A DNA stretch of 35,751 nt. It comes from Anaerolineae bacterium (GTDB taxonomy: Bacteria > Desulfobacterota > Desulfobacteria > Desulfobacterales > ETH-SRB1). The stretch covers positions 1 to 35,751 of the forward strand of contig DATKWZ010000050.1 in NCBI GenBank assembly GCA_035529315.1, read 5' to 3'. The notes beneath the pieces are model-generated. The model did not search any database. It worked only from the letters and a program-made list of their open reading frames with translations, and had not been told where the DNA came from. A program made the translations under genes and the position numbers. Below, one piece after another: positions 17,856-24,450 of this stretch. The number at the start of each line of letters is the position of its first letter. Position 1 is the first letter of the stretch.

Positions 17856-18764
17856 ATGTTTTCCAGGCGCCATCCATATCTTTTTTTTATTCTGATTTTT
17901 TCATCAATAATGGTTACGGCTTTTATCGGCTTATCTCTGGTCTTTATGCTTGCTGCAATGGATGCTGATTTTGACGATCTTTTAAAACCAGGAGGAGAAA
18001 AGGTTGGAATAGTTGAGTTGACCGGAAATATTACTTCTTCCAGGGATATAATTCATAGCCTTAAATATTTTCGTGAAAACAGTTCCATCAAAGCTATAGT
18101 AATTCGCATTGATTCTCCTGGCGGCGCTGTCGGTCCTGCGCAGGAAATTTTCAGAGAAATCAGAAAAACAGTCAAAACAAAGAAGGTTATAGCGTCTATG
18201 GGCACTGTTGCCGCATCAGGGGGTTATTATGTGGCTGCAGGCGCTGACGGCATTGTTGCGAATCCAGGCACTATAACAGGCAGCATAGGCGTTATCATGA
18301 GTTTTGCAAATTTCCAGGAGCTTTTCCGTAAAATAGGCCTGGTTCCCGTTGTCGTCAAAAGCGGCCTGTACAAGGATATCGGGTCTCCGGTTCGTGAGAT
18401 GACAAAAGATGAAGAAAATATTCTCCAGAATTTATCCGACCAGATTCACAAACAATTTATTGTGGATATTGCTAATGGAAGAAGCATGGATTTATCTATA
18501 GTGGAAGGGCTTGCCGACGGACGTATTTTTACCGGAGAGGAGGCAAAAAATCTTGGGCTGATTGACCGTCTTGGGAATCTCGAAGACGCAATAGAATGGG
18601 CCGGCCGCATGGGCGGGATTAAGGAAAAAATTTCTGCTGTTTATGCGCCGAAAAAGAAGTTTTCCATCCTGAAGTTTATTGCAGAGTCATCCGTTAAAGA
18701 GATTGCAAACATGATATCTAATCCATCATTGTATACAGGCTATCTTTATTCCCCTTCAAATTAA
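17856..18764 (+). CDS. sppA: Signal peptide peptidase SppA, short (S49) form
   Basis: SppA is a membrane-anchored serine protease that degrades cleaved signal peptides. The 302-residue protein has one N-terminal membrane segment (about residues 8-34) and a single S49 domain. It has SPGGAVGPAQEI (87-98), the nucleophile S121 in TVAASGGYYVAAGAD, and the general-base lysine K173 in KSGLYKDIGSP. The spacing of 52 residues matches the Bacillus-type short SppA. AGGA is about 8 bases before the ATG. It overlaps the end of ahbD on the opposite strand by four bases, so the two operons converge with no room for a separate terminator. Confidence 0.95.
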   Translation: MFSRRHPYLFFILIFSSIMVTAFIGLSLVFMLAAMDADFDDLLKPGGEKVGIVELTGNITSSRDIIHSLKYFRENSSIKAIVIRIDSPGGAVGPAQEIFREIRKTVKTKKVIASMGTVAASGGYYVAAGADGIVANPGTITGSIGVIMSFANFQELFRKIGLVPVVVKSGLYKDIGSPVREMTKDEENILQNLSDQIHKQFIVDIANGRSMDLSIVEGLADGRIFTGEEAKNLGLIDRLGNLEDAIEWAGRMGGIKEKISAVYAPKKKFSILKFIAESSVKEIANMISNPSLYTGYLYSPSN

Positions 18765-19861
18765 ATGCCCGGCTGGTAACTGCAAAGCGGTTCTTCAGCC
18801 AGAAAGTCGTTGGTTGCTTCATAAGCTCTTGCTCTGCAACCTCCGCATACCTTTTTGAATTCACATTTTCCGCATTTGCCCTTCAAGTTATTAGCATCAC
18901 GCAATAATTTAAAGGGTTCTGAATTCTTCCAGATATCTGCAAACGATGTTTTTGTAATATCTCCGCAATTAAGCTGGAGAAAACCGCACGGCTGCACAAT
19001 CCCTTTGTGCGAAATAAAACAAAAGCCTGTACCCCCAAGACACCCCCTGGTAACGGCATCCAGGCCGTGAGTTTTTAATGTGACTGTCTTCCCCTCTTTT
19101 TTTGCCCTTTGCCTGAGTATGCGGTAATAATGGGGGGCGCATGTGGCTTTCAGTTGCAGAGGAGTTTTCTCCCTTTGATCATAAAACCAGTTCAGGGTGT
19201 GTTCATATTCTTTAGCGGTTATTTCCTGATCTATAATATATTTGCCGCGGCCTGTTGGAACCAGAAGAAAAATATGGTGGGCAACCGCGCCAAGGTTTAC
19301 GGCAAGCTCCTGTATCCTGGCGATCTGGTCAAGGTTGGTTTTTGTAATAGTGGTGTTTATCTGAAACTCCACCCCTGCTTCCTTGATCAGCTCTATGCCG
19401 TTGAGAGATCCTTCAAATGCTCCGTTTACTCCCCTGAAGCTGTCATGACTTTCTTTTGTAGCGCCGTCTATGCTGATGCTTACCCGTTTAATGCCTGAAT
19501 CGGCCATCTGTTTTGCATTGGATTTTGTTACCAGGGTTCCATTCGGGGCCATAACCATCCTGAGCCCTTTATCCGTACCGTAACTTGCAAGTTCAAATAT
19601 ATCGGGACGTAAAAGAGGTTCTCCGCCGGTAAGAATAACTATCGGCTCCCCAAGCAAGGCTATTTGATCCAGAAGCCGGATAGAAGCCTGGGTATCAAGT
19701 TCTCCGGTATACGGGCCTTTAGTTGCAGATGCGCGGCAGTGCTTGCAGGAGAGGTTGCAGTTGCGCGTAGTTTCCCATGCGACAAGACGCAAAACAGCCT
19801 CTTTGTTTTCAGCGTGTTGATGAGGCTTTGGGATCGATGTATGATTTAATTTTTTTGTCAT
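18761..19861 (-). CDS. ahbD: AhbD, radical SAM heme synthase (Fe-coproporphyrin III decarboxylase)
   Basis: AhbD carries out the last step of the siroheme-dependent heme route, oxidatively decarboxylating two propionates of iron-coproporphyrin III to the vinyl groups of heme b. The 366-residue protein shows the radical SAM cluster C35-x3-C39-x2-C42 (RNCNLSCKHCRA), the GGEPLL motif, and a SPASM-like C-terminal cysteine set (CGKCEFKKVCGGCRARAYEATND and a late C). AhbC and AhbD are similar, and the N-terminal LRLVAWETTRNCNLSCKHCRA fits AhbD. It lies 13 bases after hemB. No strong ribosome site precedes the ATG, so coupling to hemB is likely. A related radical SAM role cannot be fully excluded. 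Confidence 0.88.
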   Translation of the reverse strand: MTKKLNHTSIPKPHQHAENKEAVLRLVAWETTRNCNLSCKHCRASATKGPYTGELDTQASIRLLDQIALLGEPIVILTGGEPLLRPDIFELASYGTDKGLRMVMAPNGTLVTKSNAKQMADSGIKRVSISIDGATKESHDSFRGVNGAFEGSLNGIELIKEAGVEFQINTTITKTNLDQIARIQELAVNLGAVAHHIFLLVPTGRGKYIIDQEITAKEYEHTLNWFYDQREKTPLQLKATCAPHYYRILRQRAKKEGKTVTLKTHGLDAVTRGCLGGTGFCFISHKGIVQPCGFLQLNCGDITKTSFADIWKNSEPFKLLRDANNLKGKCGKCEFKKVCGGCRARAYEATNDFLAEEPLCSYQPGI

Positions 19862-19874
19862 GATAAGTTATTTT

Positions 19875-20849
19875 TTATCTATTCAGCTCCTCTGCAGCTT
19901 CAATGGCAAAATAGGTCACTATCATGTCGGCACCGGCTCTCTTTATTGATGTGAGTGTCTCCATCATAACTTTTTTGCCGTCCAGCCATCCCATTTTATC
20001 GGCAGCCTTTATCATTGCATATTCGCCACTGACACTATATGCGGCAACAGGCAGATCAATTTCATCCCGAATGCGGCAGATAATATCCAGATAAGAAAGG
20101 GCCGGCTTTATCATTATTATATCCGCCCCTTCTTCAATATCCATTGTAACTTCCCTGATAGCTTCAATAGCATTTGCAGGATCCATCTGATATGTTCTGC
20201 GATCCCCGAATTTAGGGGCTGAGTCGGCTGCGTGACGAAACGGCCCGTAGTAAGCCGAGCAATACTTGGCTGAGTATGACATTATCGGGATATTGCTGAA
20301 ACTGTTTTCATCCAGGATATCGCGGATTTCAGCAACTCGGCCGTCCATCATGTCTGAAGGAGCCACCATGTCGGCTCCTGCCTTTGCATGGGACAGGGCT
20401 GTTCGGGCAAGAAGATCCAGTGTGGCATCATTATCTATTACCTGACCGTTCACAATGCCGCAGTGACCATGATCTGTGTATTGGCAGAGACAGACATCGG
20501 TTATTACAACAAGCTCCGGTATTTTGTTTTTTAGCGTTTTTATTGCTTTCTGGATGATTCCGTTTTTTGCATAAGCGCTTGTTGCAAGAGGGTCTTTGCT
20601 TTCAGGGATTCCAAAAAGCATAATAGCAGGTATGCCTAGCTTATATGCCGTATCGGCGGTTTTGACCAGATTGTCTATGGACAACTGATAATGACCGGGC
20701 ATTGATTGTATGGGGTTTTTAACTCCTGTGCCGTCAATAACAAAGAGCGGAAAGATAAGGTCATCTACTGAAAGGGCGGTTTCGCGCACCATTCGGCGAA
20801 ACGCCTCATTTTGCCGCAAACGTCTTGGTCTGTATTCAGGGAATATCAT
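19875..20849 (-). CDS. hemB: Porphobilinogen synthase (ALA dehydratase), zinc type
   Basis: HemB joins two 5-aminolevulinates to porphobilinogen, upstream of siroheme, heme and B12. The 324-residue protein has [18 protein letters not shown] at the start. The cysteine triad C120, C122 and C130 ([14 protein letters not shown]) marks the zinc-dependent form. The Schiff-base lysines are K195 ([15 protein letters not shown]) and K248 ([12 protein letters not shown]). AAGGA sits 7-8 bases before the ATG. It lies between ahbC (17-base gap) and ahbD (13-base gap), so an early and two late steps of heme synthesis are co-expressed. Confidence 0.97.
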
Positions 20850-20866: not shown

Positions 20867-22042
20867 TTAGGAGATTTCTTCATCTCTAAGATAGCATGCA
20901 GGATCAGGCGACCAGAGATCGCCTGTGGCTTCGGCGCGAACCCTGAAATTTCCGGCGCAAATATCCAGCCAGCGGCAGGTTGCGCATCTGCCTGTTACAT
21001 GTTTTTTCTTTTCTTTAAGCTTTTTCATAAGCGGTTCCGAGGTATCTGTCCATATTTTTGAAAAAGGACGATCCTTGACATTTCCGAAACTGTGATGACG
21101 CCAGAATTGATCGGCATGAACTTTCCCATCCCAGCTGATACAGCCGATTCCTATGCCTGAGCTGTTTCCTTGATTCATTTTGAGAAGTTCAAGGACATCC
21201 TCGGCCCGCCTGGGATTTTCTTTAAGAAGCCTTAAATACAGGTATGGACCATCAGCATGATTGTCAACGGTTAATATTTCTTTTGGCTTTCCACCGTCAT
21301 GTAGTTTTTTTGTAAGATCCATTATTAAATCAACAGTTGACCTAGTTTCATCATGGGATAGATCATCTTTAATAAGATCTGTTCCACGTCCCGCATAAAC
21401 CAGATGATAAAAGCAAGCCCTTGGAATCTCCATATCCTCAAGCAGCTTGAATATCCTTGGAATTTCATCTGCATTAAACTTGTTAATTGTAAAACGGAGC
21501 CCTACCTTAATTCCAGCATCCTTACAATTTTTAATTCCTTCTAAAGCCGCATTGAAAGCGCCTTTAACTCCTCTAAAACGGTCGTTAATCTCTTCCATTC
21601 CGTCAATACTGATGCCTACGTATGAAAGACCGATATCCTTTAGTATGCGCGCCATTTTCTGCGTTATAAGAGTTCCGTTTGTGGATATTACGGCCCGCAT
21701 CCCTTTGCTGACAGCATAGGCTGCAAGCTCAGGCAGATCCTTTCTGATCGTCGGTTCTCCGCCTGAAAATAAGATTACAGGCACGCCGAATTGCGCAAGA
21801 TCATCCAGCAGGATTTTCCCATCTTTTGTGGAAAGTTCGTTCTTAAAGGAGAGATCCTTTGCGTGCGCATAGCAGTGCACACATTTTAAATTGCATCGCC
21901 TTGTAATGTTCCATACAACTACCGGTTTTTTATCCTTGGAAAATTGCAGGAGATGGGAAGGTAATTTCGACGACATACGTCCATAACGAAGTGCGTCCGA
22001 CGGTTCAACTGTTCCGCAGTAAAGTTTTGATATTCCAATCAT
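20867..22042 (-). CDS. ahbC: AhbC, radical SAM 12,18-didecarboxysiroheme deacetylase
   Basis: AhbC removes the two acetate side chains from didecarboxysiroheme to give iron-coproporphyrin III, the substrate of AhbD. The 391-residue protein begins MIGISKLYCGTVEPSDALRY, a signature of this family. It has C50-x3-C54-x2-C57 (RRCNLKCVHCYA), SGGEPTIR, and C-terminal cluster cysteines in CATCRWLDICAGNFRVRAEATGD plus a late C. The N-terminal Y8/C9 stretch is also conserved in the family. The start is 8 bases from the stop of the ClpX-like gene, so both lie in one operon. AhbA and AhbB, which make the substrate, are not in the window. Confidence 0.92.
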   Translation of the reverse strand: MIGISKLYCGTVEPSDALRYGRMSSKLPSHLLQFSKDKKPVVVWNITRRCNLKCVHCYAHAKDLSFKNELSTKDGKILLDDLAQFGVPVILFSGGEPTIRKDLPELAAYAVSKGMRAVISTNGTLITQKMARILKDIGLSYVGISIDGMEEINDRFRGVKGAFNAALEGIKNCKDAGIKVGLRFTINKFNADEIPRIFKLLEDMEIPRACFYHLVYAGRGTDLIKDDLSHDETRSTVDLIMDLTKKLHDGGKPKEILTVDNHADGPYLYLRLLKENPRRAEDVLELLKMNQGNSSGIGIGCISWDGKVHADQFWRHHSFGNVKDRPFSKIWTDTSEPLMKKLKEKKKHVTGRCATCRWLDICAGNFRVRAEATGDLWSPDPACYLRDEEIS

Positions 22043-22050
22043 AAAATTTC

Positions 22051-23817
22051 TTAGGCCTTTCCTGGTGTATTGTTGTTTTTAAGTTCATTTTTAATGAGAT
22101 TGCTTATAAAAGATTCCGGCCCTAAAAGCGCCTGTTTTGTAATAAAGAAACGGTTTTTCCCTGTTTTTTCTTTAATGAGTTTAAACCCTAATTCAAAATC
22201 GATTATTAGCTGTTGGTAGAATTCTTCAAGTTTAATGCCGGAATCAATAAACTGTTTAATAATAAAATCAACGGCTTGTTCTTCCATAATTATATTAATA
22301 TCATGATTTTGGAAAAAGAATAGTTCTATTTTTTTAATTTCATCATAAAAGGTTTTTATTTTTTCAACGCTGCGCTCAATTTCCATTATATACTTGCAGT
22401 AAAAAGATGCAACAATATCTATGCGTGACTGGGTCATGGTCAGATTGTATCTTTCACTTAACCTCTTACTGTTTTTTTGCAAATATTCCTTAATAAACTC
22501 TTTTTCCTTGCTTGCCAGTTCGTTAAAGCTTGCGGTTAACTTTTCTTCGTTTAAAGGTGATAAAAGAGTTTCAAGAGCTTTTTCAGGTTCATTAACAACA
22601 AAAGCGGTTACAGGAAATTTTTTAATATCGGTTGACGGCAATTTCTTTTCAAACAAAAGCAGGGCCATTTCAAAGACGCTTACCAGGCCTCTTGCACCTG
22701 TGTTTTCATTAAAGGCCTGTTTTGATAATATGCGGAGCGCTTCATCTTCGAACTTAACCTTGATGCCATATGCTGCAAAATCAAGTTTTTTTCCAAGAAT
22801 TATGGGGTTGTTGGGGTTTTTTAAAATTTCATAAAGGTCTTTTTCGGTTAATCTTTCAAAAACAGCCTTTACAGGCAGACGTCCAACGAATTCGGACTCA
22901 AACCCGTATGTTGTCAGATCTTCAGGCATTACCTGCTGCAGAATTTCGGTTTGTTCCCTGGGGCTTGTAATATGAGCGCCAAAACCGATGCCATACTCAG
23001 CCACACGTTTTTTAATTATTTTGGTTAGATCGCTGAATGCCCCGCTCATGATAAAAAGAATATTTTTGGTGTTTACAGTACGCTTATTACGTTTGCCTGT
23101 TTTACGATACCGTTCGATTTCCTGAAGCATCGAAATAGGATCGTGCGGAACCTTTAAATCTATATCGGTTTCTTCCATTGGTTTTAGCAGAGCACGCTGC
23201 ACGCCTGTTCGTGACACATCAGCCCCTATCAGGTTGCGGCTTGACGCAATTTTATCGACTTCATCTATATATATGATGCCATATTGAGCAAGTTCAATAT
23301 CATCGTTAGTCTCTCTGACAAGATCTCGAACCAGATCCTCTACATCCCCTCCAACATAACCTGTTTCGCTGAATTTTGTTGCATCCCCTTTGACAAACGG
23401 AACGCCGATTTTTTTTGCGATAAGTTTAATCAGATATGTCTTGCCGACACCGGTAGGCCCGATCATTAGGACATTGTTCTTGATGCTGCCGACTATTTCA
23501 TTGACGCTTTCCGGAAAATCTTGTGCATGTTTGATGCGATTGAAGTGGGTGCAAATTTTTGTAGATAGAATGGCCTTGGCCATATCCTGCTTAACGATAT
23601 ATTGGTCAAGGTAGGAGATAAGATCTTCGGGTTTTAAGTTAAAAAACAGCTTTTTTTTCTTTTTCGGCTCTTTCCCTTCCTTCTCCAGCGTTACTGCCTG
23701 AGGAACAACCATTGGAGATACAATTTTAACATTATCTCCGAACTTTTTAGCCAGAAATTCACTTATTTCTTTTTCAAGCTCTTTGGGATTTGGTATTTTT
23801 TCATTATTTTCCTTCAT
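22051..23817 (-). CDS. ClpX-like AAA+ unfoldase without zinc domain, with C-terminal extension
   Basis: The AAA+ core resembles ClpX. It has Walker A GPTGVGKT (120-127), pore loop GYVG (153-156), Walker B IIYIDEVDKI (181-190), VQRALLKPMEET, an IGFG tripeptide-type loop (277-280) that in ClpX docks onto ClpP, and sensor 2 TGARGL. It differs from housekeeping ClpX in lacking the N-terminal four-cysteine zinc domain. It has instead a 110-residue lead-in with a lysine run (KKKKK), and it carries about 170 extra C-terminal residues that are helical and charged. At 588 residues it is far longer than ClpX (about 420). It leads the ahbC-hemB-ahbD operon. Its substrate is unknown; a specialised ClpP partner is plausible. 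The start has no clear Shine-Dalgarno sequence. Confidence 0.82.
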   Translation of the reverse strand: MKENNEKIPNPKELEKEISEFLAKKFGDNVKIVSPMVVPQAVTLEKEGKEPKKKKKLFFNLKPEDLISYLDQYIVKQDMAKAILSTKICTHFNRIKHAQDFPESVNEIVGSIKNNVLMIGPTGVGKTYLIKLIAKKIGVPFVKGDATKFSETGYVGGDVEDLVRDLVRETNDDIELAQYGIIYIDEVDKIASSRNLIGADVSRTGVQRALLKPMEETDIDLKVPHDPISMLQEIERYRKTGKRNKRTVNTKNILFIMSGAFSDLTKIIKKRVAEYGIGFGAHITSPREQTEILQQVMPEDLTTYGFESEFVGRLPVKAVFERLTEKDLYEILKNPNNPIILGKKLDFAAYGIKVKFEDEALRILSKQAFNENTGARGLVSVFEMALLLFEKKLPSTDIKKFPVTAFVVNEPEKALETLLSPLNEEKLTASFNELASKEKEFIKEYLQKNSKRLSERYNLTMTQSRIDIVASFYCKYIMEIERSVEKIKTFYDEIKKIELFFFQNHDINIIMEEQAVDFIIKQFIDSGIKLEEFYQQLIIDFELGFKLIKEKTGKNRFFITKQALLGPESFISNLIKNELKNNNTPGKA

Positions 23818-23891: not shown

Positions 23892-23960
23892 GAGACCTTT
23901 GAAAAGAGAAATCATCTGCAAGACTTAGATACCATTTACATGCTTTTTTTCAAAGATCTC
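23892..23960. repeat. Inverted repeat GAGACCTTTGAAAA ... TTTTCAAAGATCTC
   Basis: Arms 23892-23905 and 23947-23960 match with one mismatch around a 41-base spacer. The right arm overlaps the stop codon of the CBS gene. Without a T-run on the minus strand it is not a clean terminator. The arm resembles the CCTTTGCAAAA motif found elsewhere in the window. Confidence 0.55.
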
Positions 23961-24423
23961 AGTGGCTTTCAGTGGCGGATATAAGGGTGCGAAGAACATC
24001 CGCCTTGCCGATGATTCCCACCAGACAAGAGTCTTCGACCACCGGCAGGGTATGAAAATTGCTGTCTACCATCAGGGCCGCAACGGTTTCGAGTCCGGTG
24101 TCCGGCCGGACCGTGACCGGCTTAGGCGTCATTGCTTCCAAAACCGTGAGGGCGGCGATTTTACGGACCTGCTTTTCGATCTGTTTCACAGATGTCAGCC
24201 GGATGAGGCCGTCAAGGAAAGTAAAAATAGTGGGGATCGGCAGCTTTTTCTGCTGGGTAATAAGATCGCTTTGGCACAGAATGCCCACCAAACCTCCGTT
24301 ATCGTCCACTACCGGTACGCCGTTAATCCGGTTATCAAAAAGGATTTTGGCTGCCCTGGAAATATCCATATCAGGGGTGACGGTAATCAGGTTGGTGTTC
24401 ATGATGTCTCTGGCAATAATCAT
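23959..24423 (-). CDS. Tandem CBS-domain protein
   Basis: The 154-residue protein consists of two CBS domains (about 1-58 and 95-154), with ARDIMNTNLITVTPDMDISRAAKIL and VLEAMTPKPVTVRPDTGLETVAALMV at their starts. GVPVVDDNGGLVGILCQSDL and TLPVVEDSCLVGIIGKADVL are the usual second halves. Such stand-alone pairs bind adenine nucleotides and act as energy sensors, but the partner is unknown. I start at 24423 because GGAGGAAACA immediately precedes that ATG. A start seven codons earlier would place the ribosome site inside the gene. Codon use looks more GC-rich than in its neighbours. It precedes the heme operon but reads into an inverted repeat. Confidence 0.85.
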   Translation of the reverse strand: MIIARDIMNTNLITVTPDMDISRAAKILFDNRINGVPVVDDNGGLVGILCQSDLITQQKKLPIPTIFTFLDGLIRLTSVKQIEKQVRKIAALTVLEAMTPKPVTVRPDTGLETVAALMVDSNFHTLPVVEDSCLVGIIGKADVLRTLISATESH

Positions 24424-24450
24424 TGTTTCCTCCTGTTTTAACACGTTAAG

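Follow-up and report, generated by a model that had tools for sequence, protein, structure and literature searches.

The clpXL gene and the heme gene cluster

The window analysed here, that is, the whole stretch of 35,751 nucleotides (GCA_035529315.1, contig DATKWZ010000050.1), carries a heme gene cluster on its minus strand, the first gene of which (22051-23817) was assigned by open reading frame, Pfam domains and structure match to a 588-residue ClpX-type AAA+ unfoldase, for which we use the working label ClpXL. In same-strand order, clpXL is followed by ahbC (20867-22042) for 12,18-didecarboxysiroheme deacetylase (TIGR04546, 759 bits, cut-off 650), hemB (19875-20849) for porphobilinogen synthase (PF00490, E 4.8e-154; NF006762, 519 bits), and ahbD (18761-19861) for heme b synthase (TIGR04545, 572 bits, cut-off 500). 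The last base of the clpXL stop codon is 22051 and the first base of ahbC is 22042, with the 8 bases gaaatttt separating both genes. Conservation of the N-terminus (MKENNEKIPNPKELEKEI..) across the family supports the start codon of clpXL, and the conservation of the protein, with 45-90% identity across many of the phylum's families, indicates that this is not a chance open reading frame. Among the matches listed, the nearest named records belong to Candidatus Desulfaltia and other Desulfobacterales. A two-CBS-domain protein is encoded on the same strand just upstream of clpXL (23959-24444, minus strand) and is not conserved there in relatives. At the other end of the cluster, the stop ends of the convergent genes sppA (plus strand) and ahbD (minus strand) share 4 bases (18761-18764).

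Conserved motifs of the AAA+ core

ClpXL comprises the Pfam domains AAA_2 (PF07724) and ClpB_D2-small, and the conservation of its motifs, all encoded on the minus strand, was scored over 171 family members. Walker A (GPTGVGKT, residues 120-127; 23437-23460) is near-invariant, while the pore-1 loop GYVG (residues 153-156; 23350-23361), D185 and E186 of Walker B (IIYIDE, residues 181-186; 23260-23277), and G312, R313 and P315 of the arginine finger GRLP (residues 312-315; 22873-22884) are all found at 100%. The first AAA+ small domain (PF10431 and AlphaFold2 model; residues 347-419; 22561-22779) includes the sensor-2 motif GAR at residues 374-376, which, like the pore-1 loop, Walker A/B and the GR of the arginine finger, is essentially invariant. 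The predicted ClpP-docking tripeptide IGF (residues 277-279; 22981-22989) reads I/L/M-G-F in the family, with G and F in 100% of the 171 members, and the docking loop in the canonical ClpX of the same genomes is M/I-G-F. The top structural match of ClpXL is ClpX 4i4l (Z 32.4, 305 residues, rmsd 1.9), and the core is also related to that of HslU (ClpY), with a Z of about 26. Sequence and structure prediction show a ClpX-type fold with this motif set.

The regions around this core are different. No Cys is present in the N-terminal 60 residues of 167/171 ClpXL proteins, as opposed to five in each canonical ClpX compared, and the zinc domain, which in ClpX is used by adaptors, is absent; ClpXL has its own conserved N-terminal helix. 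According to an alignment with the canonical ClpX of the same genomes and PDB ClpX, the pore-2 region (residues 220-248; 23074-23160) is a longer loop containing VPHDPIS, which replaces the canonical RKH loop (GGRKHPQQ in six canonical ClpX proteins compared). Together with the C-terminal extension described below, these results bear out the initial annotation, made from the DNA sequence, of a ClpX-like ATPase with pore and IGF loops, no zinc domain and extra C-terminal residues, ending 8 bases before ahbC.

A duplicated small domain in the C-terminal extension

The C-terminal extension of ClpXL amounts to ~165 extra residues (median 164 in the 171 members), and it was predicted with a mean pLDDT of 92.5, compared with 80.2 for the whole AlphaFold2 model. 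Residues 421-505 (22303-22557, minus strand) are modelled as a helical linker with a pLDDT of about 90, and residues 506-582 (22072-22302, minus strand) as a degenerate repeat of the AAA+ small domain in which the sensor-2 motif GAR is missing. In the model, the succession of strand, helix, helix, strand, short helix and helix at residues 508-582 mirrors the small domain at 353-419. Aligned with copy 1 by hhalign, copy 2 scored a probability of 97.6% (E 4.5e-12, 70 columns); none of six control segments exceeded 10%. Foldseek with the C-terminal model alone returned no match with E below 0.001; VIA re-alignment of the same model placed ClpX/HslU small domains on top (best 6sfw, Z 7.9, 88 residues), and as structural Z values of up to 7.9 are weak alone, they were counted only jointly with the hhalign duplication test. 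The hhalign duplication, the repeated secondary structure and the structural matches together argue that the extension consists of a helical linker followed by another small domain that has lost GAR. No description of a duplicated AAA+ small domain was found for any ClpX-type ring, and it may be asked what such an extra lid-like domain would do around the hexamer.

ClpXL and the canonical ClpX of the same genome

We were curious to know how ClpXL relates to the housekeeping Clp proteins of its genome (2.23 Mb, 97.8% complete). The second, canonical clpX that the initial annotation had proposed to look for was indeed found: it encodes a 414-residue ClpX with zinc-type Cys residues (L192) and lies within tig-clpP-clpX-lon, beside the one true clpP of the genome, which also encodes HslU (in hslVU) and ClpB. 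This excludes ClpXL as the sole ClpX. Two clpX equivalog models do score ClpXL at 313.9 and 278.5 bits, as would suit the genome's normal ClpX or else a paralogue present by chance or in decay, yet both values fall short of the curated thresholds (359 and 370.75), a canonical clpX is present, and all catalytic motifs are conserved in 171 members. These results contradict such an origin, to which we assign next to no weight.

Comparison with bacterial ClpX as a whole gives the same picture, as the AAA+ core is ~42% identical over ClpXL residues 50-405 and shares GYVG, the GF loop, the arginine finger, sensor 2 and the fold, whereas the zinc domain and RKH loop are missing, the pore-2 segment is longer, and an own N-terminal helix, a linker and a second small domain are present in another gene neighbourhood. 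ClpXL is therefore not a member of canonical ClpX, judged by the zinc domain, the RKH loop and the clpX model score. It differs from HslU in its IGF-type loop and in a score of 170 bits with the hslU model (cut-off 362); clpXL is not located beside hslV, and a separate HslU exists. As no NCBIfam model claims ClpXL at its cut-off, databases probably contain hundreds of copies with no more than a generic annotation. Judged by sequence and model, ClpXL represents a ClpX variant that has no name so far and would work like a ClpX. Besides, some relatives have a third ClpX-like paralogue of 537-549 residues with N- and C-terminal extensions of its own (L198:1374-3023, minus strand; L199:2381-3994, plus strand), which is ~31-34% identical to ClpXL.

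Conservation of the gene order in Desulfobacterales

A good ClpXL orthologue is present in 34 of the 38 genomes of the order, that of the window included, and ahbC adjoins it wherever the flank is available. The 80 best matches listed were named Desulfobacterales or deltaproteobacterial loci, 79 of them with room downstream, and 12 loci scored at first as lacking a downstream ahbC or a called clpXL were re-read by tblastn, most of them proving to be errors of ORF picking. Among the matches listed, ahbC lies directly downstream of clpXL in 75/79 Desulfobacterales loci, and hemB does so in the other four (L119, L122, L144, L176). The gene upstream of clpXL, which served as an internal control, is variable, the most frequent cluster accounting for 8/79. 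Of the 68 gene pairs measured, 15 show a 4-base overlap. A search of 160 loci found no hemA, on which heme feedback usually acts, near clpXL. At one locus (L032:916-3144, minus strand), an open frame runs from ClpXL (residues 1-548) into the C-terminal portion of AhbC, which is probably an assembly artefact of a genome that is 77% complete.

Distribution in the phylum and linkage to two heme pathways

The analysis was extended to a phylum sample of 345 genomes, with clpXL detected in 164 and ahbC in 189; 112 genomes carry both genes, 52 clpXL only and 77 ahbC only. In the 138 readable clpXL loci, the downstream gene is ahbC in 69 (24 family codes), hemB in 18 (11 family codes), DnaJ in 36 (11 family codes) and none of the three in 15. 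The place beside ahb/hem genes, which the initial annotation had suggested checking across Desulfobacterota, is thus kept in the order as well as in the phylum, and an unconserved neighbourhood is ruled out. With the neighbourhood conserved and with canonical tig-clpP-clpX-lon and hslVU present, neither finding that could have overturned the initial proposal was obtained.

All 16 hemB-linked genomes without ahbC carry ferrochelatase (E below 1e-94) and hence use the ferrochelatase-dependent route. Two heme genes therefore share clpXL as a neighbour under two pathways, suggesting that clpXL is linked to tetrapyrrole synthesis whichever pathway is used, and the data do not support a role confined to the alternative, siroheme-dependent one. 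In the phylum sample, ahbC and ferrochelatase hardly ever occur together, with both present in 5 of the 310 genomes with either.

The 77 ahbC-only and 52 clpXL-only genomes rule out that ClpXL is a strict partner of the siroheme-dependent pathway, and since many ahbC genomes are devoid of ClpXL, it cannot be a required pathway part, nor does AhbC need it in general. A further idea is that ClpXL acts without ClpP as a remodeller and, like mitochondrial ClpX with ALAS, partially unfolds AhbC or HemB to activate them. The direct adjacency, the 4-base overlaps in many genomes and the mitochondrial precedent (PMC7077987) are in its favour; set against it are the many ahbC genomes lacking ClpXL and the fully conserved GF of the ClpP-docking loop, which would be unneeded for a chaperone-only role. 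We consider this improbable.

Linkage to DnaJ, mostly in one clade

In 36 genomes, clpXL is followed by a DnaJ gene (J domain plus DnaJ_C), mostly at 9-55 bases, and 10 of the DnaJ-linked genomes, some of them incomplete, carry neither ahbC nor ferrochelatase. In family codes f35, f96 and f114 (L072, L073, L084, L090, L206, others), the order clpXL, dnaJ and Lon-like protease resembles a proteostasis cassette. Moreover, clpXL occurs in 151/310 genomes with a heme marker and in 13/35 without (Fisher p=0.21, uncorrected for phylogeny), which gives no association between the presence of ClpXL and heme synthesis in the 345 genomes.

The main rival explanation arises from these observations, namely that ClpXL is a general Clp-type quality-control unfoldase or protease acting with Hsp40 and ClpP, with no tetrapyrrole client, and that its heme position reflects old co-expression; gene order alone can indeed have such a cause. 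The DnaJ linkage, the third-placed Lon-like protease, the retention of clpXL in genomes without ahbC or ferrochelatase and its independence of heme synthesis all fit general quality control. However, on a tree of 97 members the DnaJ linkage is almost confined to one clade, while heme-linked clades cover the remaining tree, deep branches included; the changes needed are two for DnaJ, four for ahbC and three for hemB, far below shuffled labels. The heme linkage is thus likely older than the DnaJ linkage, as judged from a tree whose root and many of whose forks are unresolved. Outside the DnaJ clade, the sole constant neighbour of clpXL is ahbC or hemB, even across pathways, and canonical ClpXP, HslUV, Lon and ClpB are already present in the genome of the window. 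General quality control with DnaJ nevertheless ranks as nearly as likely as a role in tetrapyrrole synthesis, at somewhat below even odds.

A receiver domain without phospho-Asp beside clpXL

One clade, to which the window does not contribute a copy, encodes a single receiver domain (PF00072) of 121-135 residues between clpXL and hemB or ahbC (L079:7609-7980, minus strand; L225:5758-6138, plus strand; L106, L107, L108, others). The phospho-Asp is missing in 13/13 copies, most of which carry DAGCxxC. The single-domain response regulator CpdR of Caulobacter is an adaptor of ClpXP that is active in its unphosphorylated form (PMC11519897). The likeness to CpdR lies in the single receiver domain, here encoded beside a ClpX-type gene, while the clade's receivers differ in lacking the phospho-Asp and ClpXL in lacking the zinc domain. 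By this analogy, one may reasonably guess at an adaptor similar to CpdR that is always 'on', and more broadly the protein may be an adaptor or a redox/metal sensor.

Proposed function of ClpXL

We favour, at a probability of roughly 45%, that ClpXL is a ClpX-derived hexameric unfoldase docking on ClpP, whose clients in the heme-linked lineages include tetrapyrrole enzymes, usually for degradation, and which is paired with DnaJ in one clade. The hexamer would dock on the cell's single ClpP via the IGF loop and thread proteins through its GYVG-lined pore. Without zinc domain and RKH loop, and with a conserved helix at the N-terminus, a pore-2 loop of a new type, and a linker plus duplicated small domain instead, ClpXL would serve a client set different from that of the housekeeping ClpX, and its N-terminus, pore-2 loop and C-terminal domain would be what selects these clients. 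Where clpXL heads a hemB/ahbC operon, enzymes of the tetrapyrrole pathway are most likely among the main clients, as suggested by gene position, and ATP-driven unfolding may adjust their amount or folding state, usually ending in degradation by ClpP. In the one derived clade, ClpXL would be paired with a DnaJ-type chaperone. We infer the hexamer, the ClpP partnership, the clients and regulation by degradation, while sequences and models show the fold with its motifs, the duplicated domain, the linkage of the genes and the spread of the family over the phylogeny.

Against tetrapyrrole enzymes as clients stand the 77/189 ahbC genomes without ClpXL, the p=0.21, the DnaJ-linked loci, the 15 loci where neither ahbC, hemB nor DnaJ comes next, and the unlinked hemA. 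Of the initial idea of an unfoldase dedicated to tetrapyrrole enzymes, the heme-gene linkage is conserved, but exclusivity is not supported, given the 36 loci with DnaJ next and the 10 genomes without either marker.

The analogy with mitochondrial ClpX, which acts on ALAS (PMC7077987), likewise holds in part. In both cases a ClpX-type unfoldase is tied to heme synthesis, whereas the tie of ClpXL is positional only and its neighbours are HemB and AhbC, not ALAS; a glutamyl-tRNA reductase was found in the genome of the window, so the C5 route is available and the precedent may not carry over directly. In Salmonella, glutamyl-tRNA reductase undergoes heme-regulated proteolysis by ClpAP and Lon (PMC5801465), and ATP-dependent proteolysis in tetrapyrrole control is also what we propose for ClpXL, although the unfoldase is another one and hemA is unlinked to clpXL in the 160 loci. 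A 2004 survey of delta-proteobacterial regulons includes only canonical clp operons (PMC545781). In our literature search, no paper joining ahbC or ahbD with ClpX and no description of the ClpXL paralogue were found, which is weak evidence, as many journals lie outside the search.

In its fullest form, the proposal would be that a second bacterial class of ClpX, marked by the duplication of its small domain and in one clade possibly served by a built-in adaptor, the receiver that cannot be phosphorylated, sets the level of tetrapyrrole enzymes together with ClpP under either pathway, which we advance as a speculative and, taken as a whole, rather doubtful statement. If true, a ClpXL-ClpP protease would do in bacteria what ClpX does for heme control in mitochondria. 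ClpXL bears on the questions of how heme is controlled post-translationally in anaerobes and whether bacteria, like mitochondria, have an unfoldase devoted to heme, and with one conserved gene, one operon and one ClpP, it is a directly testable candidate.
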